A stretch of 64,000 nt of DNA from Hydrocarboniphaga sp. GTDB taxonomy: Bacteria; Pseudomonadota; Gammaproteobacteria; Nevskiales; Nevskiaceae. The stretch covers positions 1 to 64,000 of the forward strand of contig NZ_JAQGNT010000029.1 in the NCBI RefSeq assembly GCF_028291725.1, written 5' to 3'. This document shows, one piece after another, positions 30,333-54,096 of this stretch. Position numbers and translations under genes: made by a program. The notes beneath the pieces were generated by a model. The model was given only the letters and a program-made list of their open reading frames with translations, had not been told where the DNA came from and did not search any database. The stretch's first letter is position 1, and each line of letters begins with the position of its first letter.

Positions 30333-31914
<1,582 letters not shown>

Positions 31915-34793: not shown

Positions 34794-35669
34794 ATGTCCA
34801 AAAAACATCCGATCATCGCAGTCACCGGCTCGTCAGGCGCAGGCACGACGACGGTGATGGCGAGCTTCAAGCACATCTTCCGCCGCGAAAAGATCCGCGC
34901 CGAACTGGTCGAGGGCGATGCCTTCCATCGCTACGACCGCAAGGGCATGCGTGCGGCGATGAAGGCGGCCGAATCCGGCCAGGACCCGAACCTAAGCCAC
35001 TTCGGCCCGGAAGCGAATCTGTTTCAGGAACTCGACGAGTTGTTCGGCCGCTACGGCGAAAACGGCAGCGGCCGCGTGCGCCGCTACCTGCACAACGACG
35101 AGGAGGCCGCGCCGTTCGCGCAGGAACCCGGCACCTTCACTCCCTGGCAGGAAATCACGCCGGACAGCTCGGATCTACTGTTCTACGAAGGCCTGCACGG
35201 CGCCGCCAAGCACGGCGAGATCAACATCGCGCGTCATCCGGACCTGCTGATCGGCGTCGTACCGATCATCAACCTGGAATGGATACAGAAACTGCATCGC
35301 GACCAGAACCTGCGCGGCTATTCGCACGAGGCCGTGGTCGAGACGATCCTGCGGCGGATGCCGGATTACGTGAAACACATCTGCCCGCAGTTCTCGCGCA
35401 CGCATGTGAATTTCCAGCGCGTGCCGACCGTGGACACCTCCAATCCCTTCATCGCGCGCGACATCCCTAGCGCCGATGAAAGCATGGTGGTGATCCGCTT
35501 CACCAACCCGAAAGGCATCGACTTCCCCTACCTGATGTCGATGCTGCACGGCTCGATGATGACGCGCCCGAACACCATCATGATCCCCGGCGGGAAAATG
35601 GGCCTGTCGATGCAGCTGATCTTCACGCCGATGCTGCTGCGGTTGATGGACCAGAAGCGTCGCGCCTGA
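34794..35669 (+). CDS. cbbP: Phosphoribulokinase
   Basis: 291 residues; makes ribulose-1,5-bisphosphate from ribulose-5-phosphate and ATP. Nucleotide-binding [12 protein letters not shown]-like start reads [35 protein letters not shown] and [22 protein letters not shown] are family signatures. It is the short proteobacterial (type I) form. ATG 34794 follows AAGGAG by 6 bases; a longer upstream frame is composed of the REP element and is rejected. Confidence 0.97.
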
Positions 35670-35679
35670 GGAATACACG

Positions 35680-37791
35680 ATGAAAAACCTTGAATTTCAA
35701 GCGTCCGGAGCGGTCGCAGCGGTCACGCCGCAACGCATGGCCAACGCGCTGCGCATGCTCGCGGTCGACGCTGTCGAGCGCGCCAGATCCGGCCATCCCG
35801 GCGCGCCGATGGGCATGGCCGACATCGCGCAAGTGCTGTGGACCCGGCATCTGAAATACGATCCGGCCGATCCGCAGTGGATCGACCGCGACCGCTTCGT
35901 GCTGTCCAACGGCCATGCGTCGATGCTGCTCTATGGCCTGCTGCACTTGAGCGGCTACGACTTGCCGCTGAGCGAACTCAAGCAGTTCCGCCAGCTGCAT
36001 TCCAAAACGCCGGGGCATCCCGAGCTGGGTGTCACGCCGGGCGTGGAAACCACCACCGGCCCGCTCGGACAAGGCCTGGGCAACGCGGTCGGCATGGCGC
36101 TCGCCGAGCGTTTGCTCGCCGCCGAATTCAACCGTCCCGGCCTGCCGATCGTCGATCACTTCACTTATGTGTTCATCGGCGACGGCTGCCTGATGGAAGG
36201 CATCAGCCACGAGGTCTGCTCGCTGGCCGGCACGCTCGGCTTGTCCAAACTGATCGCGATCTACGACGACAACGGCATCTCGATCGACGGCGAAGTCGCC
36301 GGCTGGTTTACCGACGACACGCCGGCCCGTTTTCGCGCCTACGGCTGGCATGTGATCGCCGATGTCGACGGCCACGACGCGAACGCGATCGATGCCGCGA
36401 TCAGCGAGGCACGCAGCCAGGCGCGGCTGCCACGCGGGCGTCCGAGCCTGATCTGCTGCAAGACCATCATCGGCAAGGGATCGCCGAATCGTGCCGGCAC
36501 CGAGAGCGTGCACGGCGCGCCGCTCGGGGCCGAGGAATCCGCGGCGACACGGCGCGCGCTGGGCTGGGATCATCCGCCGTTCGAGATTCCGCAGGACATA
36601 CGCTCGGCCTGGCACGCCGGTGAACGCGGTGCGCGTGCGCAGTCGCGATGGCAGGAAATGCTGCGTCTCTACCGCAAGGCGCATCCGCAGGCCGCTGATG
36701 AACTGATGCGGCGCATGCGTGGCGAGCTACCCGCAGACTTCGACGCTCGCGCAGCAAGCATGATCGAGACCGCGCTGGCCCCGGCAAAAGAGATCGCCAC
36801 ACGCAAGGCCTCGCAGTTCGCGCTCGAAGCGCTTGGGCCGCATCTGCCGGAGCTGCTGGCCGGCTCGGCCGATCTGACCGGCTCGAACCTGACCGACTTC
36901 AAGGGCTGCCGCAGCGTCGGCCGCGACCAGCCCGGCAACTACCTGCACTACGGCGTGCGCGAATTCGGCATGTCGGCCGCAATGAACGGCGTCGCGCTGC
37001 ACGGCGGCTTCGTTCCCTACGGCGGCACCTTCCTGACTTTCAGCGACTACAGCCGCAACGCAGTGCGCATGGCCGCGCTGATGCGCCTGCGCGTGATCCA
37101 TGTCTTCACGCACGACTCAATCGGCCTGGGCGAAGACGGGCCGACGCATCAGGCTATCGAACACGCGGCCTCGCTGCGGCTGATTCCGAATCTCGACGTC
37201 TGGCGTCCGGCCGACACCTTGGAAACTGCAGTCGCCTGGCAATACGCGCTGCAGCGCCGCGATGGGCCGAGCGCGCTGCTGCTGTCGCGGCAGAACGTCG
37301 CGCTGCTGCAGCGCAACCGCGCATCCGCCGACGGCGTGCGCCGCGGCGGCTACGTGCTCAGCGACAGCGGCGCGCCCTGCGTGGTGATCGTCGCCACCGG
37401 CTCGGAAATCGGGCTGGCGATTGCGGCGCAGCGCCTGCTTGAAGACGAAGGCATCGGTTCGCGCGTGGTCTCGATGCCCTGCACCGCGCTGTTCGATCGC
37501 CAGCCGCCGGCGTATCGCAACGGCGTGATGCCGATCAGCCTGCCGGCGGTCGCGGTCGAGGCCGGACACCCGGACTTCTGGCACAAGTATGTCGGCCGTC
37601 GCGGCTCGGTCGTCGGCATCGATCGTTACGGCGAATCCGCGCCAGCGCCCGATCTTTACCGCCATTTCGGTCTGACCGCAGTACGGGTCGCCGCGGTCGC
37701 AAGCCAGGTCGTGCACACGCGCCGCCGCGACCGCGTCGCGGGCATCCGGGTCGATGAATCCGATACCGAGATCGTGCTGTCGTGCAATTAG
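35680..37791 (+). CDS. cbbT: Transketolase
   Basis: 703 residues, thiamine-diphosphate enzyme exchanging C2 units between sugar phosphates. Signatures: [56 protein letters not shown] (ThDP/Mg site), [24 protein letters not shown] and the C-terminal domain. Length is about 35 residues longer than average, with a short N-terminal tail before the first conserved helix. It starts 11 bases after the cbbP stop. Confidence 0.97.
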
Positions 37792-37820
37792 GGCCGCCGC
37801 AATGAACCTCTATTTCGCAA

Positions 37821-37890
37821 CTGTAGGAGCGGACCTTGTCCGCGATTGTGCCGGCGCAGCCTCAATCGCGGACAAGGTCCGCTCCTACAG
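37821..37890. repeat. REP family B inverted pair (variant)
   Basis: CTGTAGGAGCGGACCTTGTC with CGCGATTG is repeated inverted as CAATCGCGGACAAGGTCCGC and TCCTACAG. It lies between cbbT and cbbZ. The inner arm differs from the 32.4 and 57.2 kb copies, yet both arms changed together, which preserves the hairpin. Confidence 0.9.
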
Positions 37891-37911
37891 TTCCAGCCAC
37901 CAGGAGTCTCC

Positions 37912-38643
37912 ATGTACGACTTAATCCTGTTCGACCTCGACGGCACGCTGGTGGATACCGCCGGCGATATCTGCGACACCGCCAACGACGTGCTGCTCGA
38001 ACTCGGCTTCGCTGCGGTCGACGAGACGCTGGCGCGCACCTGGATCGGCCAGGGCAGCCGCGAACTGATGATCCGCGCCTACGCTCACGCCAGCGGCATG
38101 GCCGAATCCGAGCTGCGCGCCGGCAGCGGCGTCGAATGCCTGATGGAGCTGTTCACTCGCTACCACACGCAGCGCTGCGGCCAGCGCAGCAGCGTGTTTC
38201 CGCAGGTGCGCGAATCGCTGCAGGCACTGCGTGAAATGGACATCGGCATGGCGGTGCTGACCAACCGCGAGATGCGCTTCGCGCGCATGGTGCTGGAGCG
38301 CCACGAGCTGCAGGACTATTTCGACCCGGTGATCGCCGGCGACACATTGCCGGCGAAGAAGCCCGATGCGCTGCCGGTCGAATACTGCCTGCGCGAGCAC
38401 GGCGTGGAGCGCAAGCACGCGCTGCTGATCGGCGACTCCGCGGTCGATATCGCCACCGGCCGCAACGCCGGCATCGACTGCTGGGTCGTGCCCTACGGCT
38501 ACAACGGCGGGCGCGCGGTGATCGAGGACGCGCCGGACCGGATGATCGGCGATCTGTCGTGGGTGGTCGCCCATGCCCGCGCCTGCGCACTCGACCCTTC
38601 CAACCGACGCAATCTGTTCCAGGAGAACGTTTCATGGCGCTGA
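37912..38643 (+). CDS. cbbZ: Phosphoglycolate phosphatase, HAD superfamily
   Basis: 243 residues; dephosphorylates 2-phosphoglycolate formed by RubisCO oxygenation. HAD motifs: [14 protein letters not shown] (nucleophile Asp), [14 protein letters not shown] (motif II), [13 protein letters not shown] (Lys motif III) and [16 protein letters not shown] (motif IV). ATG 37912 follows CAGGAG. Its last 10 bases overlap the start of the aldolase gene, so the two are co-translated. Confidence 0.95.
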
Positions 38644-39698
38644 TATCACTGCGACAACTGCTCGACCACGCCGCCGATCACCAGTACGGCCTGCCGGCAT
38701 TCAACGTCAACAATCTCGAACAGATCCAGGCGATCATGCAGGCCGCCGACGAAGCGGACAGCCCGGTGATCCTTCAGGCCTCGGCCGGTGCGCGCAAGTA
38801 CGCCGGCGAAGCCTTCCTGCGCCACATGGTCGAGGCCGCGGTCGAGAGCTATCCGCATATTCCGGTGTGCATGCACCAGGATCACGGCGCCTCGCCGGCG
38901 GTGTGCCAGGCCTCGATACGCAGCGGTTTTTCCAGCGTGATGATGGATGGCTCGCTGCGCGAAGACATGAAGACGCCGGCGAGCTACGAGTACAACCGCG
39001 ACGTTACCCGCAAGGTCACGGAGATGGCGCACGCGGTCGGCGTGTCGGTGGAGGGCGAACTGGGCTGCCTGGGTTCGCTGGAGACCGGTGAGGCCGGCGA
39101 AGAAGACGGTGTCGGCGCGGCCGGCAAGCTCGATCACAGCCAGTTGCTGACCGACCCCGACCAGGCCGCGGACTTCGTCGCCTGGACCGGCGTCGATGCG
39201 CTGGCAATCGCGATCGGCACCAGCCACGGCGCCTACAAGTTCACGCGGCCGCCGACCGGCGACATCCTCGCGATCGAGCGCATCGAGGCGATTCACGCGC
39301 GGCTGCCGAACACGCACCTGGTGATGCACGGGTCGAGCAGCGTGCCACAGGAATGGCTGGACGTGATCCGGCGTTTCGGCGGCGACATCAAGGAGACTTA
39401 CGGCGTGCCGGTCGAAGAGATCCAGGCCGGCATTCGCCACGGCGTGCGCAAGGTCAACATCGACACCGACATCCGCCTGGCGATGACCGGCGCGATGCGC
39501 CGCAAGATGGCTGAATCGCCGGACGAGTTCGATCCGCGCGCGTTCTTCAAGGCCGCCACCGCCGCGGCGAAGGACATCTGCAAGCTGCGCTTCGATGCTT
39601 TCGGCAGCTCCGGCCAGGCCGCGAAGATTCGGCCGCTGCACCTGGACAAGATGGCGGCGCGCTATGTGAAAGGCGAGCTGCGCGCGGTGGTGCATTGA
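38634..39698 (+). CDS. cbbA: Fructose-bisphosphate aldolase, class II
   Basis: 354 residues; zinc-dependent condensation of triose phosphates to fructose-1,6- and sedoheptulose-1,7-bisphosphate. Signatures [62 protein letters not shown] and [20 protein letters not shown] are all intact, as in the Calvin-cycle subtype CbbA. The ATG is within the end of cbbZ, with CAGGAG upstream. Confidence 0.97.
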
Positions 39699-40399
39699 GC
39701 TCCGCGCCGAACAACGCGCTGCCGATGCTGATCGCGCCGAGCATTCTGTCGGCAGATTTCGCGCGGCTCGGCGAAGAAGTCAAAACCGTGCTCGCCGCCG
39801 GCGCCGACTGGATCCACTTCGACGCGATGGACAACCACTACGTGCCGAACCTGACCATCGGCCCGATGGTCTGCAGCGCGATCAAGCCCTACGCCGGCAG
39901 CGCGCTGATCGACGTGCACCTGATGGTCGAGCCGGTCGATGCGCTGGTGCCGATGTTCGCCAAGGCCGGCGCCGGCTTGATTTCGTTTCATCCGGAAGCG
40001 TCGAAGCACGTCGATCGCACGCTGCAGATCATCCGCGATCACGGCTGCCAGGCCGGCGTCGTGCTCAATCCGGCGACGCCGCTGGCCTGCGTCGAGCACG
40101 TGCTCGATCGGCTGGATCTGCTGCTGCTGATGTCGGTGAATCCCGGCTTCGGCGGCCAGTCCTTCATTGCCTCGACGCTGCCCAAGCTGCGCCAGGCGCG
40201 GGCCCTGATCGATCGCCATGCGCGCGAGTCCGGCCAGCGCATCCGGCTCGAAGTCGATGGTGGCGTCAAGCTCGACAACATTGGCGAGATCGCAGCGGCC
40301 GGCGCCGACACCTTCGTTGCGGGTTCGGCGATTTTTGGCAGCAGCGATTACTCAGCCACGATCGCCCAGTTGCGATCATCTGCACGTAGGTTGGGGTGA
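39695..40399 (+). CDS. cbbE: Ribulose-phosphate 3-epimerase
   Basis: About 234 residues; interconverts xylulose-5-P and ribulose-5-P. Family motifs: [53 protein letters not shown] and [10 protein letters not shown]. The start is uncertain: TTG 39695 overlaps the aldolase stop and allows coupling; the first ATG in frame is at 39725, just before the conserved core, without a clear ribosome-binding site. The last codons (ARRLG) and the stop TGA come from a REP element inserted at 40386. Confidence 0.93.
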
Positions 40400-40464
40400 G
40401 CGCAGCGAACCCCAACATCGGCGCGGACGAAATGTTGGGGTTCGCTGCGCTCACCCCAACCTAC
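40386..40464. repeat. REP family A inverted pair overlapping cbbE end and cbbY start
   Basis: Same element as at 4672, with a 17-base centre. Its left arm supplies the TGA stop of cbbE. Its frame through both arms is open and provides the only start codons available to cbbY (GTG 40396, ATG 40432). Confidence 0.9.
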
Positions 40465-41226
40465 GGCTATGGCCCGCTGCGCGCGCTGCTGTTCGACGTC
40501 GACGGCACGCTGGCGGAAACCGAGCGCGACGGGCATCGCATCGCCTTCAACCGCGCGTTCCGCGATTGCGGCCTGCGCTGGGACTGGGACGCGAAGCGCT
40601 ACGGCGAACTGCTGCAGATCACCGGCGGCCGCGAACGCATCGCGCACTATGCCGCGCTGCACGATCCGCGTTGGCTAGCGGGCGACGACGCAGCATCCGC
40701 GATCGCCGAGCTGCATGCGCGCAAAAACCTGCACTACGCCGATCTCGTGCGGCGAGGGCGCATCCAGCTGCGCCACGGGCTGCACGAGTGGCTGCAGCAG
40801 GCGCGCACCGCCGGGCTGCACCTGGGCATCGTCACCACCACCAGCCGCGACAATCTCGAGGCCTTGCTGGACTCAAGCTTCGACGCCGATATGCGCGCCG
40901 CGTTCGGCGTGCGCATCACCGGCGAAGACGTGCGCCTGAAAAAGCCCGATCCGGAGTGCTATCGGCTTGCACTCGCGGCGCTCGGCTTACAGCCCTCACA
41001 AGCGCTGGCGATCGAAGATTCGCGCAACGGCCTGCGTTCGGCCATGGCCGCCGAAGTGCCGACGCTGATCGTGCGCAGCCACTACTTCCGCGATGATGAC
41101 TTCAGCGGCGCCTGGCGTGTCATCGACGATTTCCGCGAGTGCTCACTGGCGGATGTGCAGCGGCGCTTCGATGCGACGCAGCTTGATGAGACTGCTTGTC
41201 CGCATCGCGCTGTGCCGATACTTTAG
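40396..41226 (+). CDS. cbbY: HAD-superfamily phosphatase, CbbY-like
   Basis: 276 residues if GTG 40396 is used (overlapping the cbbE stop), 264 from ATG 40432. CbbY removes xylulose-1,5-bisphosphate, a misfire product that inhibits RubisCO. HAD motifs: [25 protein letters not shown] (the CbbY-typical stretch), [32 protein letters not shown] and [15 protein letters not shown]. The first 23 residues (SAANPN...GFAALTPTY) are translated REP sequence, not protein family sequence; the conserved part begins at about [12 protein letters not shown]. No start codon exists between the REP and that point. Confidence 0.9.
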
Positions 41227-41270
41227 GGCCCCGCGGAGGGCGGGCACAGCAGTCCAATCGGAGATCCACG

Positions 41271-42104
41271 ATGGAAACACGCAGCGAAACCGCCTGCTTC
41301 GGCGGCCGCATGGGGTATTACAGCCATGCTTCGACCGCCACCGGCACCGAGATGCGCTTCGCGGTGTATCAGCCGCCGCAGGCCGCGCAGAGACCCGTGC
41401 CGGCGCTGTACTACCTCGCCGGCCTGACCTGCACCGAAGAGACGTTCATGATCAAGGCCGGCGCGCAACGCGTCGCCGCGCAGCTGGGCCTGATGCTGAT
41501 CGCCTGCGACACCAGCCCGCGCGGCCTGAATCTGCCCGGTGATGCCGAGGCCTGGGACTTCGGCGTCGGCGCCGGCTTCTATCTCGACGCCGCCGCCGCA
41601 CCCTGGGCGACGAACTACCGGATGAGTTCGTACATCAACGACGAACTCCCCGCACTGATCGAAGCGAACTTCCCTGCCCGCGGCGACAAGCGCGGCATCT
41701 TCGGCCACTCGATGGGCGGCCACGGCGCGCTGGTCGCGGCGCTGAGCAAGCCGCAGTTCTGGCATTCGGTCTCCGCGTTCGCGCCGATCTGCAATCCGGT
41801 CGCGGTGCCCTGGGGCGAGAAGGCCTTCGGCAACTACCTGGGCACCGACCGCGGCAAATGGGCGGCCTGGGACGCGAGCCTGCTGATGCGCCAGCGCGCC
41901 TATCCCGGCAAGATCCTGGTCGACCAGGGACTCGCCGACCAGTTCCTGAATGGGCAGTTGCAGCCGCAGGCACTCGAGGCCGCTGCAGCGATATCCAACC
42001 AGGCTCTCGAGCTGCGTCGCCACGAGGGCTACGACCACTCGTACTGGTTCATCCAGACCTTCATCGAAGATCATCTGCGCCACCATGCCCAGGCCCTGGG
42101 CTAG
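41271..42104 (+). CDS. fghA: S-formylglutathione hydrolase
   Basis: 277 residues; releases formate and glutathione from S-formylglutathione, the step after the formaldehyde dehydrogenase encoded at 53 kb. Alpha/beta hydrolase with esterase-D signatures: YYLAGLTCTEETFMIKAGAQR, DTSPRGLNLPGDAEAWDFG, nucleophile Ser147 in GHSMGGHGAL, and the catalytic His near EGYDHSYWFIQTF. ATG 41271 follows CGGAGA. It stands 44 bases after cbbY and links the Calvin cycle block with the C1 oxidation block. Confidence 0.96.
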   Translation: METRSETACFGGRMGYYSHASTATGTEMRFAVYQPPQAAQRPVPALYYLAGLTCTEETFMIKAGAQRVAAQLGLMLIACDTSPRGLNLPGDAEAWDFGVGAGFYLDAAAAPWATNYRMSSYINDELPALIEANFPARGDKRGIFGHSMGGHGALVAALSKPQFWHSVSAFAPICNPVAVPWGEKAFGNYLGTDRGKWAAWDASLLMRQRAYPGKILVDQGLADQFLNGQLQPQALEAAAAISNQALELRRHEGYDHSYWFIQTFIEDHLRHHAQALG

Positions 42105-42480: not shown

Positions 42481-44331
42481 ATGAATTTCCACACAGTAAG
42501 GATGGTCTGTGCCGCGGTGGTGCTGGGGGCGTTCTGCGGTAGCGCCGCAGCCAATCCGGAAGAAGTCCAACGGTCCAAGGATCCGGCTCAATGGGGCATG
42601 CCTGGCGGCGATCTGGCGCTGACGCGGCATAGCAAACTCGACGACATCAACACCGGCAACGTCAACAAACTCCAGATGATCTGGTCGCAGTCCAGCGGCA
42701 CCCTGCGCGGCCACGAGGGCCAGCCGGTCGTCATCACCGAAGGCGGCAAGTCGACGATGTACCTGATCAGCGGCTGGCCGAACATCGTGCAGGCACTCGA
42801 CCTGTCCGACCCGGACAACCCCAAGGCGATCTGGAAGTACGTCAAGACCACCGACCGCGACGAGTCCGCCGTGCCGCGGGCCTGCTGCGACACGGTCAAC
42901 CGCGGTCTGTCCTACGCCGCCGGCAAGGTCGTGTTCGGCACGCTCGACGGCTATCTGATCGCGCTGGATGCCAAGACCGGCAAGGAAGTCTGGGTCACCA
43001 AGCATGCGTTCCCGGAGAACGGCGAGACCATCACGCCGGCGCCGCTGATCGCCGAGGACAAGGTGCTGATCGGTTTCGGCGGCGACGAGTTCGCCGCCCG
43101 CGGCCGTTTCACCGCCTACAACCTCAAGGACGGCAAGAAGGTCTGGGAATGCTCGTCCACCGGCCCCGACAAGGACACCTGCGTCACCAAGAACACCAAC
43201 AAGGCCCATCCGGAACACGGCACGATGGACGCATCGGTGACGAGCTATCCGGGCGAGGAATGGAAGCGCGGCGGCGGCTCGAGCTGGGGTTTCTACAGCT
43301 ACGATCCGGAACTGAAACTGGTGTATCACTCAACCGGCAATCCCGGCCTGTGGAGCCCCTTCTATCGCTGCAACCTGAAGACCCACGAGGAATGCAACAG
43401 CGGCAAGCAGGACAACAAGTGGTCGATGACGATCTTCGCGCGCAAGGTCGATACCGGTGAAGCGGTCTGGGCTTACCAGATGACGCCGTTCGACCAGTGG
43501 GATTACGACGGCATCAACGAGAACATGCTGGCCGACTGGAAAGTCGACGGCAAGGATCGCAAGGTGCTGGTGCACTTCGACCGCAACGGCTTCGCCTACG
43601 TGCTCGACCGCACCGACGGCACGCTGCTGCGCGCCAACAAGTACGTGACCGCGAACTGGGCCGAGAAGATCGACCTGAAGACCGGCCGTCCAGTCAAGGT
43701 CAAGGAGCACTCTCCGTTCGGTCTCGGCAATAACGTGCAGGCCTGCCCGTCCGCGATGGGCGGCAAGGATCAGCAGCCCTGCGCACTGGACCCGAACGAA
43801 CCCGGCGTCGCCTACTGCCCGACCAACAACTGGTGCATGGAGCTGGAGCCGCAGGAGCGCTCCCACACCCAGCAGGGCACGGTCTACGTGTTCGCCAACG
43901 TGTTCATGTATCCGGAAAAGCCCGGCGTGACCGGCAAGTTCAAGAAGTTCAACGTGCTCACCGGCGAGACCGTCTGGGAAATCCCCGACCAGTATCCGAA
44001 CTGGAGCGGCGCGCTGCTCACCGATGGTGGCCTGGCGTTCTACGGCAGCCTCGGTGGTGACTTCCGTGCCGTGGATCGCAAGACCGGCAAGGTGTTGTGG
44101 AGCCGCAAGCTGGGTTCGGGAATCATCGGCAACCCGATCACCTACAAGGTCGGCGGCAAGCAGTACGTGTCGGTCTGGAGCGGCATCGGCGGCTGGATCG
44201 GCCTGCCGGTCACGGCCGGTCTCGATCTTGAGGACAAGTTCGGCGCGATCGGCGCCACCGCGATGACCAAGGCGGCCAACCTCGACAAGATCCCGCAGGG
44301 CGGCACGCTCTACACCTTCCGCGTCGACTGA
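42481..44331 (+). CDS. xoxF: Lanthanide-type PQQ methanol dehydrogenase
   Basis: 616 residues; periplasmic oxidation of methanol to formaldehyde (or further). Signal peptide to about residue 24 (SAAA-NPEE). Quinoprotein features: vicinal disulfide Cys135-Cys136 (ACCDTVNRG), metal ligands Glu203 (GDEFAARG) and Asn287 (STGNPG), catalytic Asp341 in DQWDYDG and the additional Asp343 two residues on that marks lanthanide-dependent (XoxF-type) enzymes; calcium MxaF has alanine there. Several tryptophan-docking repeats (LDAKTGKEVW, VLTGETVWEIP) form the propeller. It is first gene of a C1 operon behind a sigma54 promoter. Confidence 0.96.
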   Translation: MNFHTVRMVCAAVVLGAFCGSAAANPEEVQRSKDPAQWGMPGGDLALTRHSKLDDINTGNVNKLQMIWSQSSGTLRGHEGQPVVITEGGKSTMYLISGWPNIVQALDLSDPDNPKAIWKYVKTTDRDESAVPRACCDTVNRGLSYAAGKVVFGTLDGYLIALDAKTGKEVWVTKHAFPENGETITPAPLIAEDKVLIGFGGDEFAARGRFTAYNLKDGKKVWECSSTGPDKDTCVTKNTNKAHPEHGTMDASVTSYPGEEWKRGGGSSWGFYSYDPELKLVYHSTGNPGLWSPFYRCNLKTHEECNSGKQDNKWSMTIFARKVDTGEAVWAYQMTPFDQWDYDGINENMLADWKVDGKDRKVLVHFDRNGFAYVLDRTDGTLLRANKYVTANWAEKIDLKTGRPVKVKEHSPFGLGNNVQACPSAMGGKDQQPCALDPNEPGVAYCPTNNWCMELEPQERSHTQQGTVYVFANVFMYPEKPGVTGKFKKFNVLTGETVWEIPDQYPNWSGALLTDGGLAFYGSLGGDFRAVDRKTGKVLWSRKLGSGIIGNPITYKVGGKQYVSVWSGIGGWIGLPVTAGLDLEDKFGAIGATAMTKAANLDKIPQGGTLYTFRVD

Positions 44332-44426
44332 GCCCCGACCGCGGTTCTGCAGTTGCGTTGCAGTAACGCCCGGTGCTCGAAAGACGCACCGGGCGTTCGC
44401 ACTGACGGGCACCGAAGGAGAGGCAC

Positions 44427-46136
44427 GTGGACAATCGAGTCGATGCAGGCTTTGCATTCCGCAACAGGATTTCGCTGCTGATTCACCCCATCATGATGCT
44501 CGGCGCCATCGTGGCGACGAGTGTGTGCAACACCGCCGCGGCCGGCGAGATCCGCGCGCTGCGGGTCTGCGCCGACCCCGGCAACATGCCGCTGTCGAAC
44601 CAGCGCGCAGAAGGTTTTCAGAACAAGATCGCCGAGGTGCTCGCCACCTCGCTGGGCACCACCGTCACCTACGACTGGCGCGCCTCCACCGAGCGCGGCC
44701 TGCTGCGCGGCACGCTCGACGCCAACACCTGCGACGTGATGCTCGACATGCCCGCCGACATGGAGCGGGTGCTGACGACCACGCCGCTGTATCGCAGCGC
44801 GTTCGTGCTGGCCTATCGCGCCGATCGCGGCATCAAGATCAAGAATCTCGACGATCCTCAGCTGAAGAAGCTGAAAGTCGGCGTCTACCAGATGTCGGCG
44901 ATCCGTGAGTCTCTGGCCCAGCACGGCGTCAAGAGCAACACCGTCACTCATTTCATCAGCTACGACGGCGACCGCGTGCCCGAGCACCAGCCCTCGTACC
45001 AGGTGCAGCGGATGATCGACGGCCAGCTCGACGTCGTCGGCATCTGGGGCCCGTTCGCGGGCTACTACAAGACGATGAAGAATGCGCCGATCGTGCTGCA
45101 ACCGGTCAACCTGATGGACGACGATGAGCCGCTGCAGTTCGAGATGGCGCTCGCGGTGCGCCGCGGCGACCGCGATCTGCAGCAGAAGCTCGACCAGGTG
45201 CTGCGCGACGAGCAGGGCAAGATCCGCAAGATCCTCGACGACTATGGCGTACCGCTGGTGCAGTGCGACATCTGCGTGATCAGCGGCGACATTCCCGCGC
45301 ATGGTCCGTACAAGGCGGTGACGCCGCCGACGGTTGCCGAAGCGCCGGCGGCGTCCACCGCCTATGCACCACCGGCCACGCTGGACCAGCTGAAGATCTG
45401 GCTCAAGCAGGGCGCCGATCCGAACAAGGAGCTGAGCAACGCGACCACCGCCGGCGACTTGGTCCGTGTGCGCTATCTGATCGAAAAGGGCGCCGACATC
45501 AACACCCGCGACGCCGAAGGCTATACGCCGCTGCAGAACGCGGTGCGCACGCGCTACGACGAACTCGCGAGCTACCTGATCGACAACAAAGCCGATGTGA
45601 ATCTCGCCGACCGCGACGGCTGGGCACCGCTGATGTTCGCCGCCTGGCGCGACAGCCCGGCCAGCATCGCCGCGCTGGTGTCGCACGGCGCCAGGCTCGA
45701 GACCCCCAATCCGCAGGGGCTCACCGCGCTGTGCATCGCCGCGCAACAGGGCAAGACCGAGGCGGCTTCGGCGCTGGTCAAGGCCGGCGCCGATATCAAC
45801 AAGGTCGTCGGCGGCGCCGGTTATACGCCGCTGATGCTGGCGGTGGTCGGCGGCTGGGAAGAGACCGCCGCCGCGCTGATCGGCAGCGGTGCCGCGGTGA
45901 ACGCGAAGAACAGCGGCGGCATCACCACGCTGATGATCGCCGCTGCCGGCAACCGTGTCGAAACCGCGAAGCTGCTGATCAAGTCCGGAGCGGATATCGA
46001 CGCAAAAGCCGAGCAGGGCCTGACCGCCTTGAGCATCGCCCAGGACCGCGGCAACGACGCCGTGATCGAAGTGCTGAAGCAGGCACCGCATCACACCGGC
46101 AGCGCCGCCGAAGGCTTTGCAAAACCCCGGGCCTGA
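44427..46136 (+). CDS. xoxJ: XoxJ-like periplasmic binding protein fused to ankyrin repeats
   Basis: 569 residues from GTG 44427 (AAGGAG 6 bases upstream). An N-terminal hydrophobic segment (ISLLIHPIMMLGAIVATSVC) precedes a solute-binding domain, about residues 42-295 (RALRVCADPGNMPLSNQRAEGFQNKIAEVLA), of the type found next to quinoprotein dehydrogenases (MxaJ/XoxJ), thought to help enzyme activation or cofactor insertion. From about residue 318 to 555 there are roughly seven ankyrin repeats (for example EKGADINTRDAEGYTPLQNA). Standard XoxJ ends after the binding domain; this fusion is unusual. It lies 95 bases after xoxF. Confidence 0.88.
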   Translation: MDNRVDAGFAFRNRISLLIHPIMMLGAIVATSVCNTAAAGEIRALRVCADPGNMPLSNQRAEGFQNKIAEVLATSLGTTVTYDWRASTERGLLRGTLDANTCDVMLDMPADMERVLTTTPLYRSAFVLAYRADRGIKIKNLDDPQLKKLKVGVYQMSAIRESLAQHGVKSNTVTHFISYDGDRVPEHQPSYQVQRMIDGQLDVVGIWGPFAGYYKTMKNAPIVLQPVNLMDDDEPLQFEMALAVRRGDRDLQQKLDQVLRDEQGKIRKILDDYGVPLVQCDICVISGDIPAHGPYKAVTPPTVAEAPAASTAYAPPATLDQLKIWLKQGADPNKELSNATTAGDLVRVRYLIEKGADINTRDAEGYTPLQNAVRTRYDELASYLIDNKADVNLADRDGWAPLMFAAWRDSPASIAALVSHGARLETPNPQGLTALCIAAQQGKTEAASALVKAGADINKVVGGAGYTPLMLAVVGGWEETAAALIGSGAAVNAKNSGGITTLMIAAAGNRVETAKLLIKSGADIDAKAEQGLTALSIAQDRGNDAVIEVLKQAPHHTGSAAEGFAKPRA

Positions 46137-46235: not shown

Positions 46236-46844
46236 GTGTTGAAGATAGTCGCAGTCGGTTCAATCGCCCTGATACTGGCTACGATGGCCTATGCGGACGG
46301 CAGTGAAGCCGAAAGCCCGCCATCCAAGAAATCGGTTGCCGCAGCAGAACAGGGGCCGCCCGCGGACCCCTCAGCCAATCCGTCCGATGCTCCGTCCACT
46401 GCGGCGACAGCCGCGCCCAGCGGCATGCCGCCGCTAGATCGGGTCAAGGCCACGCCCAAGGGCGGGCTGAAGAATCCGTACACCGACGCCAATGCCGACA
46501 TCGTCGCGCAAGGACAGAAGCTCTACATGAAAACCGGCTGCAACGGCTGCCACGGCGGCGGCGGCGGCGGCGGCATGTGCCCGCCACTGTCGAACGACAC
46601 CTGGGTCTACGGCGGTGACGACGATACCCTGTTCCGGCTGGTGTCCGAAGGCACCGATGCGCTGCAGAAGGACGGCTATATGCGCAAGGGCCACGAGAAC
46701 GTCGTCGGGCCAATGCCGCAGCACGGCATGATCATCAAGAGCGACGACGATCTGTGGAAGATCATCACCTTCATCCGCTCCAACTACCGCGGCGGCCCGT
46801 CGAAGAAGTTCGGCGATCAGCCGACAGCTCCGGCGACGCAGTAG
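46236..46844 (+). CDS. xoxG: Periplasmic cytochrome c, XoxG-like electron acceptor
   Basis: 202 residues from GTG 46236 (AAGGAGA 7 bases upstream). Signal peptide MLKIVAVGSIALILATMAYA, an Ala/Pro/Ser-rich linker of about 45 residues, then one heme site Cys102-xx-Cys105-His106 followed by a run of glycines; a later methionine (VGPMPQHG) could be the axial ligand. Its position directly after xoxF and xoxJ is that of the cytochrome cL/XoxG that takes electrons from methanol dehydrogenase. Sequence similarity to characterised XoxG is not verified; the call rests on the operon order. Confidence 0.85.
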   Translation: MLKIVAVGSIALILATMAYADGSEAESPPSKKSVAAAEQGPPADPSANPSDAPSTAATAAPSGMPPLDRVKATPKGGLKNPYTDANADIVAQGQKLYMKTGCNGCHGGGGGGGMCPPLSNDTWVYGGDDDTLFRLVSEGTDALQKDGYMRKGHENVVGPMPQHGMIIKSDDDLWKIITFIRSNYRGGPSKKFGDQPTAPATQ

Positions 46845-46892: not shown

Positions 46893-47915
46893 ATGGACAA
46901 TACGCAAGCCTATCTCGAGCGCTGGCGCAGCAAGGCCCTGCATTTCGAGCACGCGCTCAACGGCATCGTGCTCGGGCTTGCGCCGGCGGTGCGGCTGCTG
47001 ACGATTTCGATTTTCGCGCGTGGCCACGTGCTGCTCGAAGGCAATGTCGGCGTCGGCAAGACCACGCTGCTGCGCGCCGCGGCGCGCGGTGTCGGCGGTG
47101 CTTATCAGCGCGTGGAAGGCACCATCGACCTGATGCCGCACGACATGATCTATCACACGCATGTCGACCGCGAAGGCCGGCCGCGCGTCGATCCGGGCCC
47201 GCTGCTGGCGCACGGCCCGAACCTGTCGGTGTTCTTCTTCAACGAGATCAACCGCGCGCGTCCGCAAGTGCACTCGCTGCTGCTGCGGGTGATGGCCGAG
47301 CGCAGCGTCACCGCGTTCAATGCCGAGCACCACTTCCCTCACCTGCAGGTATTCGCCGACCGCAACCGCGTCGAGAAGGAAGAAACCTTCGAGCTGCCCG
47401 GCGCGGCGCGCGACCGCTTCCTGATGGAGATCGAGATCGCGCCCTCGGAAGACGAGGCAGTGCACCGGCAGCTGATGTTCGAGGAGCGCTTCCACGACAC
47501 CGACACGCTGATCGCCGGCATCGAGGAAGGCCAGCTCGACTATCGCGAACTCGGCGGCGTCGCGCGGCTGATCCAGTCCAGCGTGCTGGCCGGCGCCGCG
47601 GTGCAGGACTACGCCGGCCATCTGCGGCGCGCGACGCATCGTCCTGCGCAGGCCGGCATCAAGATCGACGAGGTCGACATGGACGAGCTGATTCTCGCCG
47701 GCGCCGGCCCGCGCGGCATGAGCATGCTGGTGCGTGCAGCCAAGGTCGCCGCCTGGCTCGACGGCCGCCTGCATCTGAGGCCCGAAGATCTGCGCGCGGT
47801 GTTTCACGAAGTCGTCGGCCATCGCGTGTTCTTCACGCCGCTCTACGAGCTGCAGCGCGGCCGCATCGCGCCCGAGTTCAGCGCCGCGATACTGCGCCGC
47901 GTCCCGGCGCCATGA
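46893..47915 (+). CDS. mxaR: MoxR-type AAA+ ATPase of the methanol dehydrogenase maturation set
   Basis: 340 residues. Walker A LLEGNVGVGKTTLLRAAARG, Walker B LSVFFFNEINRARPQVHSLLL and the MoxR-typical AARDRFLMEIEI are clear. MoxR ATPases work with von Willebrand-type proteins as chaperones for metal cofactor insertion; here the DUF58 and vWA genes follow at once in the order R-S-A-C-K-L known from methanol oxidation clusters. ATG 46893 follows GGGGAGGA. It is 48 bases after xoxG and probably in the same operon. Confidence 0.93.
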   Translation: MDNTQAYLERWRSKALHFEHALNGIVLGLAPAVRLLTISIFARGHVLLEGNVGVGKTTLLRAAARGVGGAYQRVEGTIDLMPHDMIYHTHVDREGRPRVDPGPLLAHGPNLSVFFFNEINRARPQVHSLLLRVMAERSVTAFNAEHHFPHLQVFADRNRVEKEETFELPGAARDRFLMEIEIAPSEDEAVHRQLMFEERFHDTDTLIAGIEEGQLDYRELGGVARLIQSSVLAGAAVQDYAGHLRRATHRPAQAGIKIDEVDMDELILAGAGPRGMSMLVRAAKVAAWLDGRLHLRPEDLRAVFHEVVGHRVFFTPLYELQRGRIAPEFSAAILRRVPAP

Positions 47916-47941
47916 AGCGCATGGTCTGGGCGATTCAGCGT

Positions 47942-48028
47942 GTAGGTTGGGGTGAGCGCAGCGAACCCCAACATTGCGACGGTGATCGTTGGGGTTCGCT
48001 GCGCTCACCCCAACCTACCCCAACCTAC
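47942..48028. repeat. REP family A inverted pair
   Basis: Same element as at 4672, including the extra CCAACCTAC at the right end. It sits between mxaR and mxaS, inside the operon. Confidence 0.9.
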
Positions 48029-48042
48029 GAAGCCGGGGCATC

Positions 48043-48900
48043 GTGACCCACCCCGGCTTCGCCACCGTCGACTACCGCGTACAGTGGAAGCCCGGCGGCG
48101 TGCTGCCCGGCTCGCATCGCGGCGCGCACGCCGGCAGCGGCCACGAGCTGCGCGCACTGGTGCCGCTGAACGATCACCCCGATCCACGCCGCCTGGATCT
48201 GCGCGCGACGTTGCGCGATCCGTATCAGCGCCTGTGGGTGCGCGACTTCAAGCAGAACACCGCGCTGAAGGTCTACGTACTCGCCGACGTATCGGCGTCG
48301 ATGGCATTCAACGGCCGCTACGACAAGTTCGAACAGATGCGGCGGATCACGATGACGCTGGCGCATTCGGCCTGGCGCTCCGGCGACCGCTTCGGCATGG
48401 TCGCCGCCGACGAGCAGCTGCGCCCCGAGCTGAGCCTGCCGGCGCGGATCAACAAGGGCGCCGCGCAGTGGCTGGACCGGCGCATGAGCGCATTCGAGCC
48501 GCGCGGGCGCAGCGCGCTCGGGCTGCTGCAGGCGGTGTCGCAGCTGCCGGCCAAGCGCGCGCTGGTTTTTCTGATTTCGGATTTCTGCTGGCCCGAATCC
48601 GACACCCGCAGAATCCTGCGCGCGCTGACCCATCACGACGTCGTGCCGGTGGTGCTGTGGGACCCGGCCGAGGACCGCGACATCCCGCGCTGGGGCATCG
48701 CGCGCCTGCGCGACAGCGAGACCGGCCGCAGCCGCTATCTCTGGCTGCGGCCGAAGCTGCGCGACAAGCTGCGCGCGGTGTATCAGACGCGGCGCGACGA
48801 GCTGCTGCGCCTGTGCCACGAGGCCGGGCGACGCCCGTTTTTCGTACTCGATGAATTCGATCCGGCGCTGCTGACGCGGTATTTCATGGGGGCGGCGTGA
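48043..48900 (+). CDS. mxaS: DUF58-domain protein of the methanol dehydrogenase maturation set
   Basis: 285 residues from GTG 48043 (GGGGC upstream), which begins right after the REP element; an in-frame start within the REP would only add repeat-coded residues. It has a degenerate von Willebrand-like core (VYVLADVSASMAFNG with the DxSxS metal site, then GDRFGMVAADEQL and VFLISDFCWPE). MxaS proteins act with MxaR ATPase. Its stop overlaps the GTG of mxaA by 4 bases. Confidence 0.9.
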   Translation: MTHPGFATVDYRVQWKPGGVLPGSHRGAHAGSGHELRALVPLNDHPDPRRLDLRATLRDPYQRLWVRDFKQNTALKVYVLADVSASMAFNGRYDKFEQMRRITMTLAHSAWRSGDRFGMVAADEQLRPELSLPARINKGAAQWLDRRMSAFEPRGRSALGLLQAVSQLPAKRALVFLISDFCWPESDTRRILRALTHHDVVPVVLWDPAEDRDIPRWGIARLRDSETGRSRYLWLRPKLRDKLRAVYQTRRDELLRLCHEAGRRPFFVLDEFDPALLTRYFMGAA

Positions 48901-49811
48901 TCCGCCACGCCGCGCTGTTCGTGCTGGCACTGGCGCTGCCGACGCCGGCCGAGGCGGCAGCCACGGTCGCGGCCGCGCCCGCGTACCGGGTCGAGGCGCG
49001 GATGCGCGACACCGGCTACGTGCTCGGCGATCTGCTGCAGCAGCGCGTCGAGATCCAGGTGCCGGACGGCGCCCGGCTCGACGCCGATTCGGTGCCGCGG
49101 CTCGGCCGCGTCAACAACTGGCTGGAGCTGCGCGACTGCCGCATCGACCGCCACGACGGCGGCTACACGCTGCTGCTGACCTACCAGATGTTCGGCGTCG
49201 TCGAGAACGCGCTGCAGCTGGCGATTCCGGCGTTCCAGCTGCGCTTTTCCGACGCCGCTCATCCCTCGATGCCGACCACCGTCGGCATCGCACCACAGCC
49301 GTTCTATCAATCGCCGGTACTGCCGGCGAGCCTCAGCGATACCGATCGCGAGCCGCGCGCGAGCTTCGCGCCCGAGCCGATCGCGAGCGCGTTCTGGCGC
49401 CGGGCCTCGGCAGCGAGCTTCGCGGCGGCGCTGCTGCTGGCGTTCTACCTGGGCTGGATCTACGACCGCCTGCCATGGCTGCCACGCAAGCCCGGGCCGC
49501 TGACCGCGCTGTTCCGGCGCCTGCGCGGACGCCGCGCACTCGGCCTCGACGCGCAGGCGTATCGCGATCTGCTGCGCCAGCTGCACGCCACGCTGAATCA
49601 CTGCGCCGGCCAGACCCTGTACATCGACAATCTGTCGCTGCTGTTCACGCGCGCACCGCATCTGCAGCCGCTGCGCGGCGAACTCGAGAACCTGTTCCGG
49701 CATTCGCGCAGCGTGTTCTACGACGCGGCGCCGGCGGGCGACGTCTGGCCGAGCACGCGGGTGATCGAGCTGTGCCGCCAGGCACGCGACTGCGAGCGCG
49801 GCATCCGATGA
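48897..49811 (+). CDS. mxaA: MxaA-like membrane protein
   Basis: 304 residues from GTG 48897. Signal peptide (IRHAALFVLALALPTPAEAAA), a periplasmic domain of about 140 residues, one transmembrane helix (ASFAAALLLAFYLGWIY, about 180-196) and a cytoplasmic tail ending RQARDCERGIR. The place between the DUF58 and vWA genes and the topology match MxaA, required for metal insertion into methanol dehydrogenase. Similarity of the sequence itself is low in this family, so context carries the call. It shares a 4-base ATGA overlap with mxaC. Confidence 0.82.
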   Translation: MIRHAALFVLALALPTPAEAAATVAAAPAYRVEARMRDTGYVLGDLLQQRVEIQVPDGARLDADSVPRLGRVNNWLELRDCRIDRHDGGYTLLLTYQMFGVVENALQLAIPAFQLRFSDAAHPSMPTTVGIAPQPFYQSPVLPASLSDTDREPRASFAPEPIASAFWRRASAASFAAALLLAFYLGWIYDRLPWLPRKPGPLTALFRRLRGRRALGLDAQAYRDLLRQLHATLNHCAGQTLYIDNLSLLFTRAPHLQPLRGELENLFRHSRSVFYDAAPAGDVWPSTRVIELCRQARDCERGIR

Positions 49812-50818
49812 ACGCGTCCATCGGCGGACTGTCGTTCACCGATCCCTGGCTGCTGCCAGCGCTGCTGCTGGCGCTGCTGCCGCTGGCGTTTCAGGGCCTG
49901 CGCCGCTTCGCCTATCCGAGCCTCGCCTATGTTCCGGTCGACTGGCCTTCGCGCCTGCTGCAGGGCGGGCTGCGGCTGCTCGCGGCGTCGACGCTGGCGC
50001 TACTGATCATCGCCGCGGCCGGGCCTTATGCCGGCGGCGGCAGCGTCAGCCATGTCGGCAGCGGCGCGCAGATCGTCGTCGTCTTCGACCGCAGCGGCAG
50101 CATGTCGGAGCCGATGGCCAGCGGCTGGGACGACACGCGCAAGGGCGAGAGCAAGATCGTCGCGGCGCGGCGCATATTGCTCGATTTCATGCACCAGCGC
50201 CGCGGCGACATGTTCGGCATGGTCGCGTTCGGCTCCACGCCGATCGGCGTGGCACCGCTCAGCGACGACCGGCCGATGGCCGAAGCGGCGCTGAAAAGCG
50301 CCGAGGCGCGCAGCATGGGCTTTACCGCGATCGGCCGCGCGCTCGGCATGTCGCTGGACTACTTCCGCGATCGCCCCTACACCGCGGCGCGCATGGTGCT
50401 GCTGGTGTCCGACGGCGGCGCCGAGATTCCGCCGGCCGATCGCGAAATCCTGCAGACCCTGTTCGTCAACCGCCGCACCTCGCTGATCTGGCTGTATACG
50501 CGCGGTGCGCGCGAGCCCAGCGTGATCACGGTTGGCGACGGCGATGGCGACGGTGACGCTGCGCATTCGTCGCAGAGCCTGTCGATGCACCAGTTCTTCT
50601 CGCAGCTCGGCGTGCCCTACCAGGTGATGGAGGCGACCAGCACCGCCGACGTGCAGCGCGCAATCGACCAGATCGGCAAGCTGACCAACCTGCCGACGCG
50701 TTACCAGGAGCAGCTGCCGCGCCGCGATCTGGCGACGCCGCTGTACAGCCTGGCGCTGCTGATGCTGGCGCTGCTGGCCGCCGCCAAGCTCGCCGAGCTG
50801 CGCACATGGTCCGCCTGA
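49808..50818 (+). CDS. mxaC: MxaC-like von Willebrand factor A membrane protein
   Basis: 336 residues. A membrane segment near the N-terminus (WLLPALLLALLPLAFQG), a second (LRLLAASTLALLIIAAAG), then a vWA domain with intact metal site DRSGSMSEP, TAIGRALGMSLDYF and VLLVSDGGAEIP, and a C-terminal transmembrane helix (LYSLALLMLALLAAAKLAEL). Typical BatA/MxaC topology. A longer upstream frame without support is ignored. It overlaps mxaK by 13 bases. Confidence 0.9.
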   Translation: MNASIGGLSFTDPWLLPALLLALLPLAFQGLRRFAYPSLAYVPVDWPSRLLQGGLRLLAASTLALLIIAAAGPYAGGGSVSHVGSGAQIVVVFDRSGSMSEPMASGWDDTRKGESKIVAARRILLDFMHQRRGDMFGMVAFGSTPIGVAPLSDDRPMAEAALKSAEARSMGFTAIGRALGMSLDYFRDRPYTAARMVLLVSDGGAEIPPADREILQTLFVNRRTSLIWLYTRGAREPSVITVGDGDGDGDAAHSSQSLSMHQFFSQLGVPYQVMEATSTADVQRAIDQIGKLTNLPTRYQEQLPRRDLATPLYSLALLMLALLAAAKLAELRTWSA

Positions 50819-51393
50819 GATGGCTGCGGCCGCGGCTGCCGCAGCTCGCCTGGGCTGCGCTGCTGGCCTGCGTCGCGAGCGGCGCTTTCAGTCTTTACCA
50901 GTGGCAGCACGCCGCCGCGCTGGACCGGATGATCGCCGATGGCACGCTGATCGAGCAGGCGGCGATTCCGAACGCGCCAGCGGTGCGTTATGCCGCCGGC
51001 TGGCTGTATCAGAGGGTCGAGCAGAACCAGCTGGCACTGCAACGCTACGCCGACGCGGAAACCGCACCCGATCCGCATCTGGCCTCGCGCGCCAAGTTCG
51101 CGCTGGGCAATCTCTATCTGCAGATCGGCCTGCGCGCCGGCGACATCGCCGCCGGCGGCTCGCATGTGCGCGGACTGGCGCAACTCGAACTCGCGCGCGA
51201 GGCGTATCGCGACGCGCTGCGGCTCGACCCGGATCTGCGCGACGCACGCTACAACCTCGAACTGCTGGAGCGCCTGAGCCCCGGCAAACGAGACCAGGGC
51301 TGGATGCGCAACGAGCGCAACCAGAAGCTCGGCGCCGGCACCGAGCCCGGCTGGGCCAGCATGCAGGAAAGCTCGATCCGCGGGTTGCCATGA
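50806..51393 (+). CDS. mxaK: MxaK-like membrane protein with TPR-like region
   Basis: 195 residues. One N-terminal transmembrane helix (LPQLAWAALLACVASGAFSLY) and a periplasmic helical part resembling a tetratricopeptide unit (LELAREAYRDALRLDPDLRDARYNLELLERL). Position and layout fit MxaK; the family has no known catalytic residues. The downstream partner mxaL is separated by about 420 bases of repeats. Confidence 0.83.
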   Translation: MVRLRWLRPRLPQLAWAALLACVASGAFSLYQWQHAAALDRMIADGTLIEQAAIPNAPAVRYAAGWLYQRVEQNQLALQRYADAETAPDPHLASRAKFALGNLYLQIGLRAGDIAAGGSHVRGLAQLELAREAYRDALRLDPDLRDARYNLELLERLSPGKRDQGWMRNERNQKLGAGTEPGWASMQESSIRGLP

Positions 51394-51512
51394 CGCGGCA
51401 GACGAGCGACCAGGATTCCGCGCGACCGTCACCCTCGTCATTCCCCTCTCCCGCAAGCGGGAGAGACCACCGCAGGCTTGCACCTGCCGGCTTGAATGCC
51501 GGAACCGGCCCG

Positions 51513-51615
51513 CTCCTTCCCCGGCCTGCGGGGGAAGGTTGGGATGGGGGCGCGACGATAGCGCCGCGCCTGCTCGCCCCCACCCCGGCCCTCCCCCGCA
51601 AGCGGGGGAGGGAGA
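51513..51615. repeat. REP family E inverted pair
   Basis: CTTCCCCGGCCTGCGGGGGAAG and CCTCCCCCGCAAGCGGGGGAGG hairpins flank complementary GGGATGGGGGCG / CGCCCCCACCCC. It has the same layout as the element at 34672. Confidence 0.82.
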
Positions 51616-51675
51616 GGTTCCTGGGTAGCCCCGTGTTCCTTGCGGACCGGCTCACGGACCATGAACCCGACGAAG

Positions 51676-51748
51676 GTAGGTCGGCAATCCTTTGCCGACG
51701 TGCTCAAGCGATCGGGGCGCACACGTCGGCAAGGGATTGCCGACCTAC
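51676..51748. repeat. REP family D inverted pair
   Basis: GTAGGTCGGCAATCCTTTGC with CGACGTG faces CACGTCGGCAAGGGATTGCC with GACCTAC. A single arm of the same element occurs after nrdA at 9678. Confidence 0.88.
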
Positions 51749-51811
51749 GTCGCTGGCGGGGCAGCGCCGCTTGCGGGAGAGGGGACTGCTGGTTCAGTCA
51801 GTGCCATTCCA

Positions 51812-52765
51812 ATGAAAGGCGCGCACCGCCTGAGCTGGCCACGTCCCAGCCTGCTGCTGTTGCTGCTGGCGATGCTCGTGCTGCTGCCGGTCTACGCCGC
51901 GCCATCGCGGCTCGCGCCCGGTATCAGCTATGCGTATCTGTTCGTCATCGACGTCAGCCAGAGCATGAACGTGCGCGACCAGGCCGTTGATGCGAGCCGC
52001 GGCGCAGCGCTGGTTTCGCGGCTCGAAGCCGCCAAGCTCGCAGTCGACAGCGGCCTGCGCGGCCTGCCCTGCGGATCGCGCGCCTCGGTCGCGCTGTTCG
52101 CCGACGACGAGACGCTGGTGCTGTTCGAACCGCTGGAAATCTGCGCGCACTACCCGGCGATGCAGCGCGTCGTCGCCGATATCAGCTGGCGCATGGCCTG
52201 GGCCGGCAATTCGCGGATCGATACCGGCATCGTCAGCGCGATGACCGAGGCCGCGAGCCGCAGCCTCAAGCTGGTGTTCTTCACCGACGGCGACCAGGCG
52301 CCGTATCGCGAGCAGGTGCGGCTCAATGAATTGCAGGCGCATCGCGGCGCCACCCGCGGCCTGATCGTCGGCGTCGGCGGCGAGCAGGAGCGTCCGATCC
52401 CGAAGCTCGGCGTACATGACGAGATCATCGGCTGGTGGCAGCCGCAGGACGCGGCGCGCAACGGCTTCAATCCAAACATGGCGATCGTGATGGACGGCTT
52501 CGAGCCCGCGGCGCGTGGCACGGACACCGCATCGCAGGGGCCGCACGAGCATCTGTCGGCGCTGCGCAGCGAGCCGCTGCAGCAATTCGCACAGGCCGCC
52601 GAGCTGAACTACCTGCGGCTCGGCAGGAACGACGCCTATACGCGTGCGCTGGCCGATCCGCATCTGGCGAACTTCGACGTCGCACCGCGCGATCTGCGCA
52701 TGATCTTCGGCCTGATCGCGGCCAGCCTGATGCTGCTGGCCTGGGTACTGCCTGACAGGCCGTGA
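51812..52765 (+). CDS. mxaL: MxaL-like von Willebrand factor A membrane protein
   Basis: 317 residues from ATG 51812. Signal anchor PSLLLLLLAMLVLLPVYA, then a vWA domain with metal site VIDVSQSMNVRD, IDTGIVSAMTEAA and LVFFTDGDQAP, and a C-terminal helix (IFGLIAASLMLLAWVLP). It closes the R-S-A-C-K-L series, although separated from mxaK by repeats. The ribosome-binding site is poor, so translation may depend on read-through or a start I have not identified. Confidence 0.88.
   Translation: MKGAHRLSWPRPSLLLLLLAMLVLLPVYAAPSRLAPGISYAYLFVIDVSQSMNVRDQAVDASRGAALVSRLEAAKLAVDSGLRGLPCGSRASVALFADDETLVLFEPLEICAHYPAMQRVVADISWRMAWAGNSRIDTGIVSAMTEAASRSLKLVFFTDGDQAPYREQVRLNELQAHRGATRGLIVGVGGEQERPIPKLGVHDEIIGWWQPQDAARNGFNPNMAIVMDGFEPAARGTDTASQGPHEHLSALRSEPLQQFAQAAELNYLRLGRNDAYTRALADPHLANFDVAPRDLRMIFGLIAASLMLLAWVLPDRP

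Positions 52766-52851: not shown

Positions 52852-54096
<1,245 letters not shown>

Follow-up and report, generated by a model that had tools for sequence, protein, structure and literature searches.

An ankyrin-tailed form of the binding protein XoxJ recurs beside one clade of XoxF methanol dehydrogenases

The function of XoxJ is an open question in lanthanide-dependent methylotrophy, and one gene of Hydrocarboniphaga sp. raises it in a particular form: what is an ankyrin array doing on such a protein? The gene lies in the 64,000-nucleotide stretch of contig NZ_JAQGNT010000029.1 that was analysed here (the window) and joins a XoxJ-type binding protein to a C-terminal ankyrin array (J-Ank, Table 1). 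An earlier note on this DNA had proposed that the array acts as a periplasmic scaffold. We asked whether the fusion is genuine, how far it is shared, and what role it may have.

J-Ank is read from GTG to TGA through 569 codons without interruption, and both of its halves are recognised by family models. The first half scores 255.7 bits against TIGR03871, the model of quinoprotein dehydrogenase-associated binding proteins (cut-off 212.15), while Pfam ankyrin models match from residue 339, with Ank_2 at 154.1 bits against a gathering score of 27.3. Using phmmer, the first part retrieved the solved XoxJ 6onp and MxaJ chains, and the second part very many ankyrin structures. An AlphaFold2 single-chain model, built on an alignment of 76 natural sequences (mean pLDDT 92), contains a bilobed J domain, a linker, one extra (capping) helix and seven ankyrin helix pairs; the earlier count of about seven repeats was therefore right, and so was the reading of a XoxJ-type domain and an ankyrin array in one frame. 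The J domain superposes on MxaJ 5sv6 with a Z score of 26.3 (rmsd 2.1, 230 aligned) and on XoxJ 6onp with a Z score of 25.7 (rmsd 1.8, 209 aligned), and VIA-align fits the repeats to known ankyrin structures with Z scores of up to 29.9. Model score, bilobed fold and gene neighbourhood all place J-Ank in the XoxJ/MxaJ family; the Pfam score and the helix-pair repeats make it an ankyrin protein as well. The position of the J domain relative to the array is undefined in the model (pTM 0.60), the linker between them having pLDDT values below 50. No solved chain that combines the two domains was found among the matches listed in the fold search. Judging from the signal-peptide-like start and the partner proteins, J-Ank is likely periplasmic, in keeping with the earlier placement.

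Several other candidates at this position were set aside. A 594-codon frame on the minus strand that overlaps J-Ank was taken as a by-product of the high G+C coding sequence. Every model of Dot/Icm ankyrin effectors scored far under its cut-off (for example AnkH, 76.7 against 600), and PADLOC ankyrin models matched the repeats only, as ankyrin cross-matches do.

Table 1. Positions of the J-Ank gene, its parts and its surroundings in the window
Feature	Position	Strand	Length	Basis or remark
RuBisCO/Calvin-cycle genes and both glutathione-dependent formaldehyde genes, flanking the xoxF operon	30364-42104 and 52894-54096			
REP-like element, further inverted pair	37819-37892			
REP-like element, paired inverted copies	40385-40465 and 47942-48018			31-base element
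xoxF, lanthanide-type PQQ methanol dehydrogenase, predicted XoxF1 type	42481-44331	+	616 aa	TIGR03075; 7o6z nearest
XoxF extra cysteines C224/C234, C297/C305	43150-43395	+		
XoxF extra cysteines C434/C446	43780-43818	+		
RNA hairpin between xoxF and xoxJ-Ank	44365-44397	+		RNA fold of 44340-44422: -43 kcal/mol, z -4.3
Shine-Dalgarno AAGGAG of J-Ank	44415-44420	+	6 bases	6 bases 5' of GTG 44427; sequence
J-Ank, XoxJ-type binding protein with C-terminal ankyrin array	44427-46136	+	569 aa	
Signal-peptide-like N-terminus, aa 1-39	44427-44543	+		Charged start, hydrophobic core, AAA ahead of G40; read from sequence
J domain, aa 44-278, MxaJ/XoxJ fold	44556-45260	+		TIGR03871, structural match, cysteines
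Junction motif CxxCxxxGD[IL]P[AS]HGxY, aa 280-295	45264-45311	+		C280/C283 counts in fused and plain J
Disordered linker, aa 302-314	45330-45368	+		pLDDT <50 (AlphaFold2)
Capping helix and seven ankyrin repeats, aa ~319-552	45381-46082	+		Pfam, AlphaFold2 helix pairs, VIA-align
Cytochrome c, probable XoxG	46236-46844	+	202 aa	CNGCH haem motif, then GMCPPL; Pfam Cytochrom_C
Third cysteine of the cytochrome, C115	46578-46580			In GMCPPL
MoxR ATPase, DUF58, two VWA proteins, TPR protein, one further frame	46893-52765	+		Pfam

The gene is adjoined on the same strand by those of a PQQ methanol dehydrogenase and of a cytochrome c that is the probable XoxG of this system. We conclude that J-Ank is the XoxJ of a lanthanide methanol dehydrogenase operon, of XoxF1 type by the comparisons given below, with the order xoxF1, xoxJ-Ank, xoxG. 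The dehydrogenase carries WDYDG and hence the second aspartate of the WD[YF]DG motif that marks lanthanide enzymes. Its own genome holds one XoxF at E<1e-100, one J-Ank and pqqB, and a search of that genome found neither a second J-Ank nor a second XoxF at this threshold; J-Ank must therefore serve that XoxF. The hairpin between xoxF and xoxJ-Ank has no T run after it and is probably an mRNA-stabilising or processing element.

MoxR-VWA clusters often lie near methanol dehydrogenase genes, and the genes of the cluster downstream of the cytochrome are present beside related loci too. Upstream of xoxF are genes for the RuBisCO large subunit, cbbX, fructose bisphosphatase, phosphoribulokinase, transketolase, a phosphoglycolate phosphatase-like protein, aldolase, ribulose-phosphate epimerase and S-formylglutathione hydrolase, and a gene for S-(hydroxymethyl)glutathione dehydrogenase follows the MoxR/DUF58/VWA/TPR cluster. 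The region thus looks like an autotrophic methanol island, with methanol-to-CO2 genes next to those of CO2 fixation. A palindrome-like, REP-like element of 31 bases, GTAGGTTGGGGTGAGCGCAGCGAACCCCAAC, occurs as two inverted pairs 7.5 kb apart, one on either side of the methanol genes, and another inverted pair lies further upstream.

A scan of species genomes with an alignment of seven fusions yielded 144 relatives, of which the best 80 were kept. All 80 proved to be full-length fusions, from the J domain through the repeats, and they come from at least 77 genomes (77 when counted by record prefix). These carriers belong to the Gamma-, Beta- and Alphaproteobacteria, with one Candidatus Methylomirabilis, and include type strains and a complete genome (Methyloligella sp. 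GL2); among them are Solimonas aquatica DSM 25927, Hydrocarboniphaga effusa AP103, Rudaea cellulosilytica DSM 22992, Methylotenera mobilis 13 and Hyphomicrobium zavarzinii ATCC 27496. A XoxF frame stands directly upstream on the same strand at 76 of these 80 loci; at the other four (L089, L099, L101, L105) the fetched DNA begins within about 550 bases of J-Ank. Relatives of the cytochrome c were found at 61 of the 80, and 19 loci, mostly from Hyphomicrobiales, have no such gene within the fetched flank, contig ends explaining some of these.

These data bear directly on the origin of the fusion. A misassembly, a chimera or a frameshift joining two genes is vanishingly improbable: no point in its favour was found, and because the same fusion recurs in many isolates, type strains and a complete genome included, we reject it. 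That the fusion might be confined to one sequence, as an assembly error, had been raised in the earlier note, which also suggested looking for it in other methylotrophs; the search returned at least 80 loci, several cultured methylotrophs among them, and rules that outcome out. The same recurrence, together with purifying selection on the ankyrin half (see below), bears out the earlier description of the junction as undisturbed. The rarity implied by the note does not hold, given that the fusion, in at least 77 genomes, is the usual J form beside one XoxF clade. J-Ank is therefore a real, conserved subfamily of J proteins.

Some loci depart from the common arrangement. In three genomes J-Ank occurs at two loci (L114/L138, L135/L142, L117/L122), and a second, partial J-Ank-like frame (L124:2-1366) lies upstream of a complete operon in the same contig. 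At L119:2874-6080 (Methyloceanibacter marginalis) the J-Ank frame continues into the next gene; we did not count these 1069 codons as a further fusion, since the frame reads on from the last repeat, most likely through a frameshift. A separate ankyrin gene, such as might represent the parts before fusion, was sought near J genes that have no array (plain J), and none was present within about 4 kb at 36 loci. The ankyrin-tailed version of XoxJ is apparently undescribed: XoxJ and ankyrins were not found together in the open-access literature, where ankyrin with methanol dehydrogenase likewise gave nothing relevant by title, and earlier mention in key reviews is possible.

Is the fusion tied to a particular dehydrogenase? 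Scored against the window XoxF, XoxFs beside J-Ank reach 912-1334 bits (complete frames), versus 320-546 bits for those beside plain J. In 398 sampled Pseudomonadota genomes, XoxF hits fell either at 68-100% identity (genomes G000, G457 and G359), all three with a fused J, or at 52% and below, where the J is plain. Relatives, and likewise the family of G359, showed the same gap between 68% and 52%. Three more genomes (G625, G575 and G798) came from a class-wide sample, each with the fusion as the gene next to XoxF, so that with G001 and G016 all eight genomes checked for this kind of XoxF carry it. In G359 and G457 the two systems coexist, the fused and the plain J each accompanied by a separate XoxF. 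Quick, unrooted trees of sampled sequences, made for the J domain and for XoxF, agree: a branch with SH-aLRT 100 sets off all sampled fused J proteins, and a branch of equal support all XoxFs beside them. Taken together, the comparisons show that the fusion is the usual J form beside one XoxF clade, with which it pairs one to one, and that other XoxFs have plain J.

This clade appears to be XoxF1. Of the solved enzymes, 7o6z scores highest against the window XoxF (891 bits), ahead of 4mae (XoxF2-type, 597), 6oc5 (510) and 6dam (498), and 7o6z is a XoxF1-type enzyme (PMC8546591). For three taxa in which J-Ank was found, Methylophilus sp. 14 (L136), Methylotenera mobilis (L125) and Hyphomicrobium zavarzinii (L127), XoxF1 is given in Table 1 of PMC8999231, the match being by taxon. 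All 68 XoxFs examined beside J-Ank have WDYDG or WDFDG.

The fused proteins and their neighbours also share cysteines. C48 and C102 are conserved in all J proteins examined, whereas the junction pair C280 and C283 is present in 76 of 76 fused and in none of 36 plain J proteins; H292, close to this CxxC, is 93% conserved. The window XoxF has the canonical C135-C136 and C422/C452 and, in addition, the pairs C224/C234, C297/C305 and C434/C446. C297/C305 is found in 68 of 68 XoxFs beside J-Ank and C224/C234 in 60 of 68, compared with 0 of 30 beside plain J for either pair, and two further, optional pairs occur in 31 and 23 of the 68. Each extra pair is present or absent as a unit; given this strict pairing, they are most likely disulfides. 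In the cytochrome, a third cysteine after the haem motif (C115, apparently unpaired) is shared by 61 of 62 relatives beside J-Ank, and cytochromes beside plain J mostly have GP where those beside J-Ank have CP. The junction CxxC of fused J proteins and the extra paired cysteines of their XoxFs are new here. The cysteine traits of the three proteins are associations at the level of the clade, not independent events: the pairing of XoxF1 and J-Ank goes back to a single evolutionary event, and cysteines, ankyrins and clade are thus statistically inseparable.

Selection on the array was estimated from ankyrin codons by the Nei-Gojobori method. Against four near relatives, dN of the ankyrin half is 0.27-0.32 and dS 0.61-0.84, and mean pair identity is 0.54 for the J domain and 0.42 for the array. 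The array is under purifying selection and is less constrained than the J domain.

J-Ank can be set beside several known systems. XoxJ of Methylorubrum extorquens AM1 (6onp) and MxaJ of Methylophaga (5sv6) share the fold of residues 44-278, and plain XoxJ/MxaJ proteins also share C48/C102 and a gene position beside a PQQ methanol dehydrogenase. Unlike J-Ank, they end soon after the J domain, lack the CxxC junction and the repeats, and form a separate branch. The earlier statement that J proteins normally stop after the binding domain therefore stands for plain J but not for four fetched loci at which J is fused to cytochrome c. These (L184-L187), encoded next to PQQ dehydrogenases, form a distant J group that ends in a cytochrome c domain. 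In the XoxF system of Methylacidiphilum, cytochrome cGJ (XoxGJ) likewise has its J domain joined to a second module (PMC8498564); that module is the cytochrome itself, whereas in J-Ank it is the ankyrin array and the cytochrome is separate. XoxG and XoxJ of Methylacidimicrobium are separate genes, and ankyrins in J go unmentioned there (PMC8498564). Among solved enzymes the XoxF1-type 7o6z, from Methylacidimicrobium thermophilum AP8, is the one closest to the window XoxF; unlike the latter, it lacks both main extra pairs of cysteines.

A further comparison is with AnkB of Pseudomonas aeruginosa and Cj1386 of Campylobacter jejuni, which, like J-Ank, are ankyrin proteins tied to a cofactor enzyme. 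They are needed for full activity or haem loading of catalases (AnkB, which is periplasmic, for full KatB activity; Cj1386 for delivering haem to KatA), as cited in PMC10294975 and PMC4518328. Both are catalase helpers without a fused J domain; J-Ank, by contrast, is J-fused and encoded beside xoxF instead of a catalase gene.

What might the array contribute? We favour, with about an even chance of being right, a dedicated clamp or chaperone in which the J domain binds immature XoxF1 for cofactor loading and the ankyrin arm adds a second contact. The J domain would bind immature XoxF1 in the periplasm and keep it open for PQQ and the lanthanide; the flexibly tethered arm would supply a second protein contact needed by the XoxF1 clade, most simply on XoxF1 itself; and, more speculatively, the junction CxxC might assist or respond to the extra XoxF1 disulfides. 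In La medium, loss of xoxJ in M. extorquens has the same effect as loss of xoxF (PMC7391723), XoxJ/MxaJ is proposed to bind apo-dehydrogenase that is partly folded, so that cofactors can be inserted (PMC12997753), and the structure of a MxaF/MxaJ complex has been solved (9ism). What is known of XoxJ/MxaJ and of ankyrin proteins in the periplasm would suit a role in assembly or maturation no less well than a scaffold. Points against the clamp are the undefined placement of the two domains in the model, the weaker conservation of the array, the single evolutionary event behind the pairing, and the lack of extra cysteines in 7o6z, a verrucomicrobial enzyme. The scaffold itself, with the J domain holding XoxF1, the array holding XoxG and electrons passing within the tethered complex, counts among the two or three sensible readings, and we attach to it a distinctly smaller weight. 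It draws on the operon order, on the proposal that MxaJ links the dehydrogenase to cytochrome cL as an adaptor (PMC9728263), on J proteins fused to the cytochrome itself (XoxGJ and L184-L187), and on the distinct form of the cytochrome beside J-Ank, with its clade-specific cysteine; however, the 19 loci without such a cytochrome gene in the fetched flank speak against it, as does the emphasis on assembly in the recent XoxJ/MxaJ literature (PMC12997753).

The cysteines admit another reading, in which the thiols of the junction CxxC are redox-active and help the extra XoxF1 disulfides to form or isomerise, while the arm presents the client. The confinement of C280/C283 to fused J, the strict pairing of the extra XoxF cysteines, and their absence from 7o6z all point this way. 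We nevertheless consider such an oxidative folding factor unlikely: the CxxC and the XoxF pairs belong to one clade and may reflect one shared ancestry, outside a thioredoxin fold a CxxC may simply form a structural disulfide or bind a metal (consider the conserved H292), and general Dsb enzymes can do the same job. Equally doubtful is a combined, redox-active XoxF1 assembly machine, whose ankyrin arm would hold unfolded XoxF1 while the CxxC steers disulfides and the J domain opens the PQQ/lanthanide site, and whose CxxC may engage the cytochrome cysteine. Finally, the array could be a localisation or stability module that, for example, binds the envelope or protects J, without contributing directly to XoxF1 maturation or to electron transfer. 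Its faster evolution relative to the J domain and its tether, a variable disordered linker, are consistent with this, but the array is kept at all 80 fetched loci (the best 80 of 144) and in all eight XoxF1 genomes checked, spans several classes and a second phylum, and is under purifying selection, and we think such a module improbable.

XoxF1 is one of the XoxF clades that have been studied less, yet in one metaproteome it was the most frequent clade among XoxF proteins (PMC8999231). What had seemed an odd single fusion is now a conserved J subfamily paired with one XoxF clade, and a J protein that combines an added protein-binding arm with an invariant pair of cysteines, and has its own XoxF clade, offers a natural handle on the function of XoxJ.
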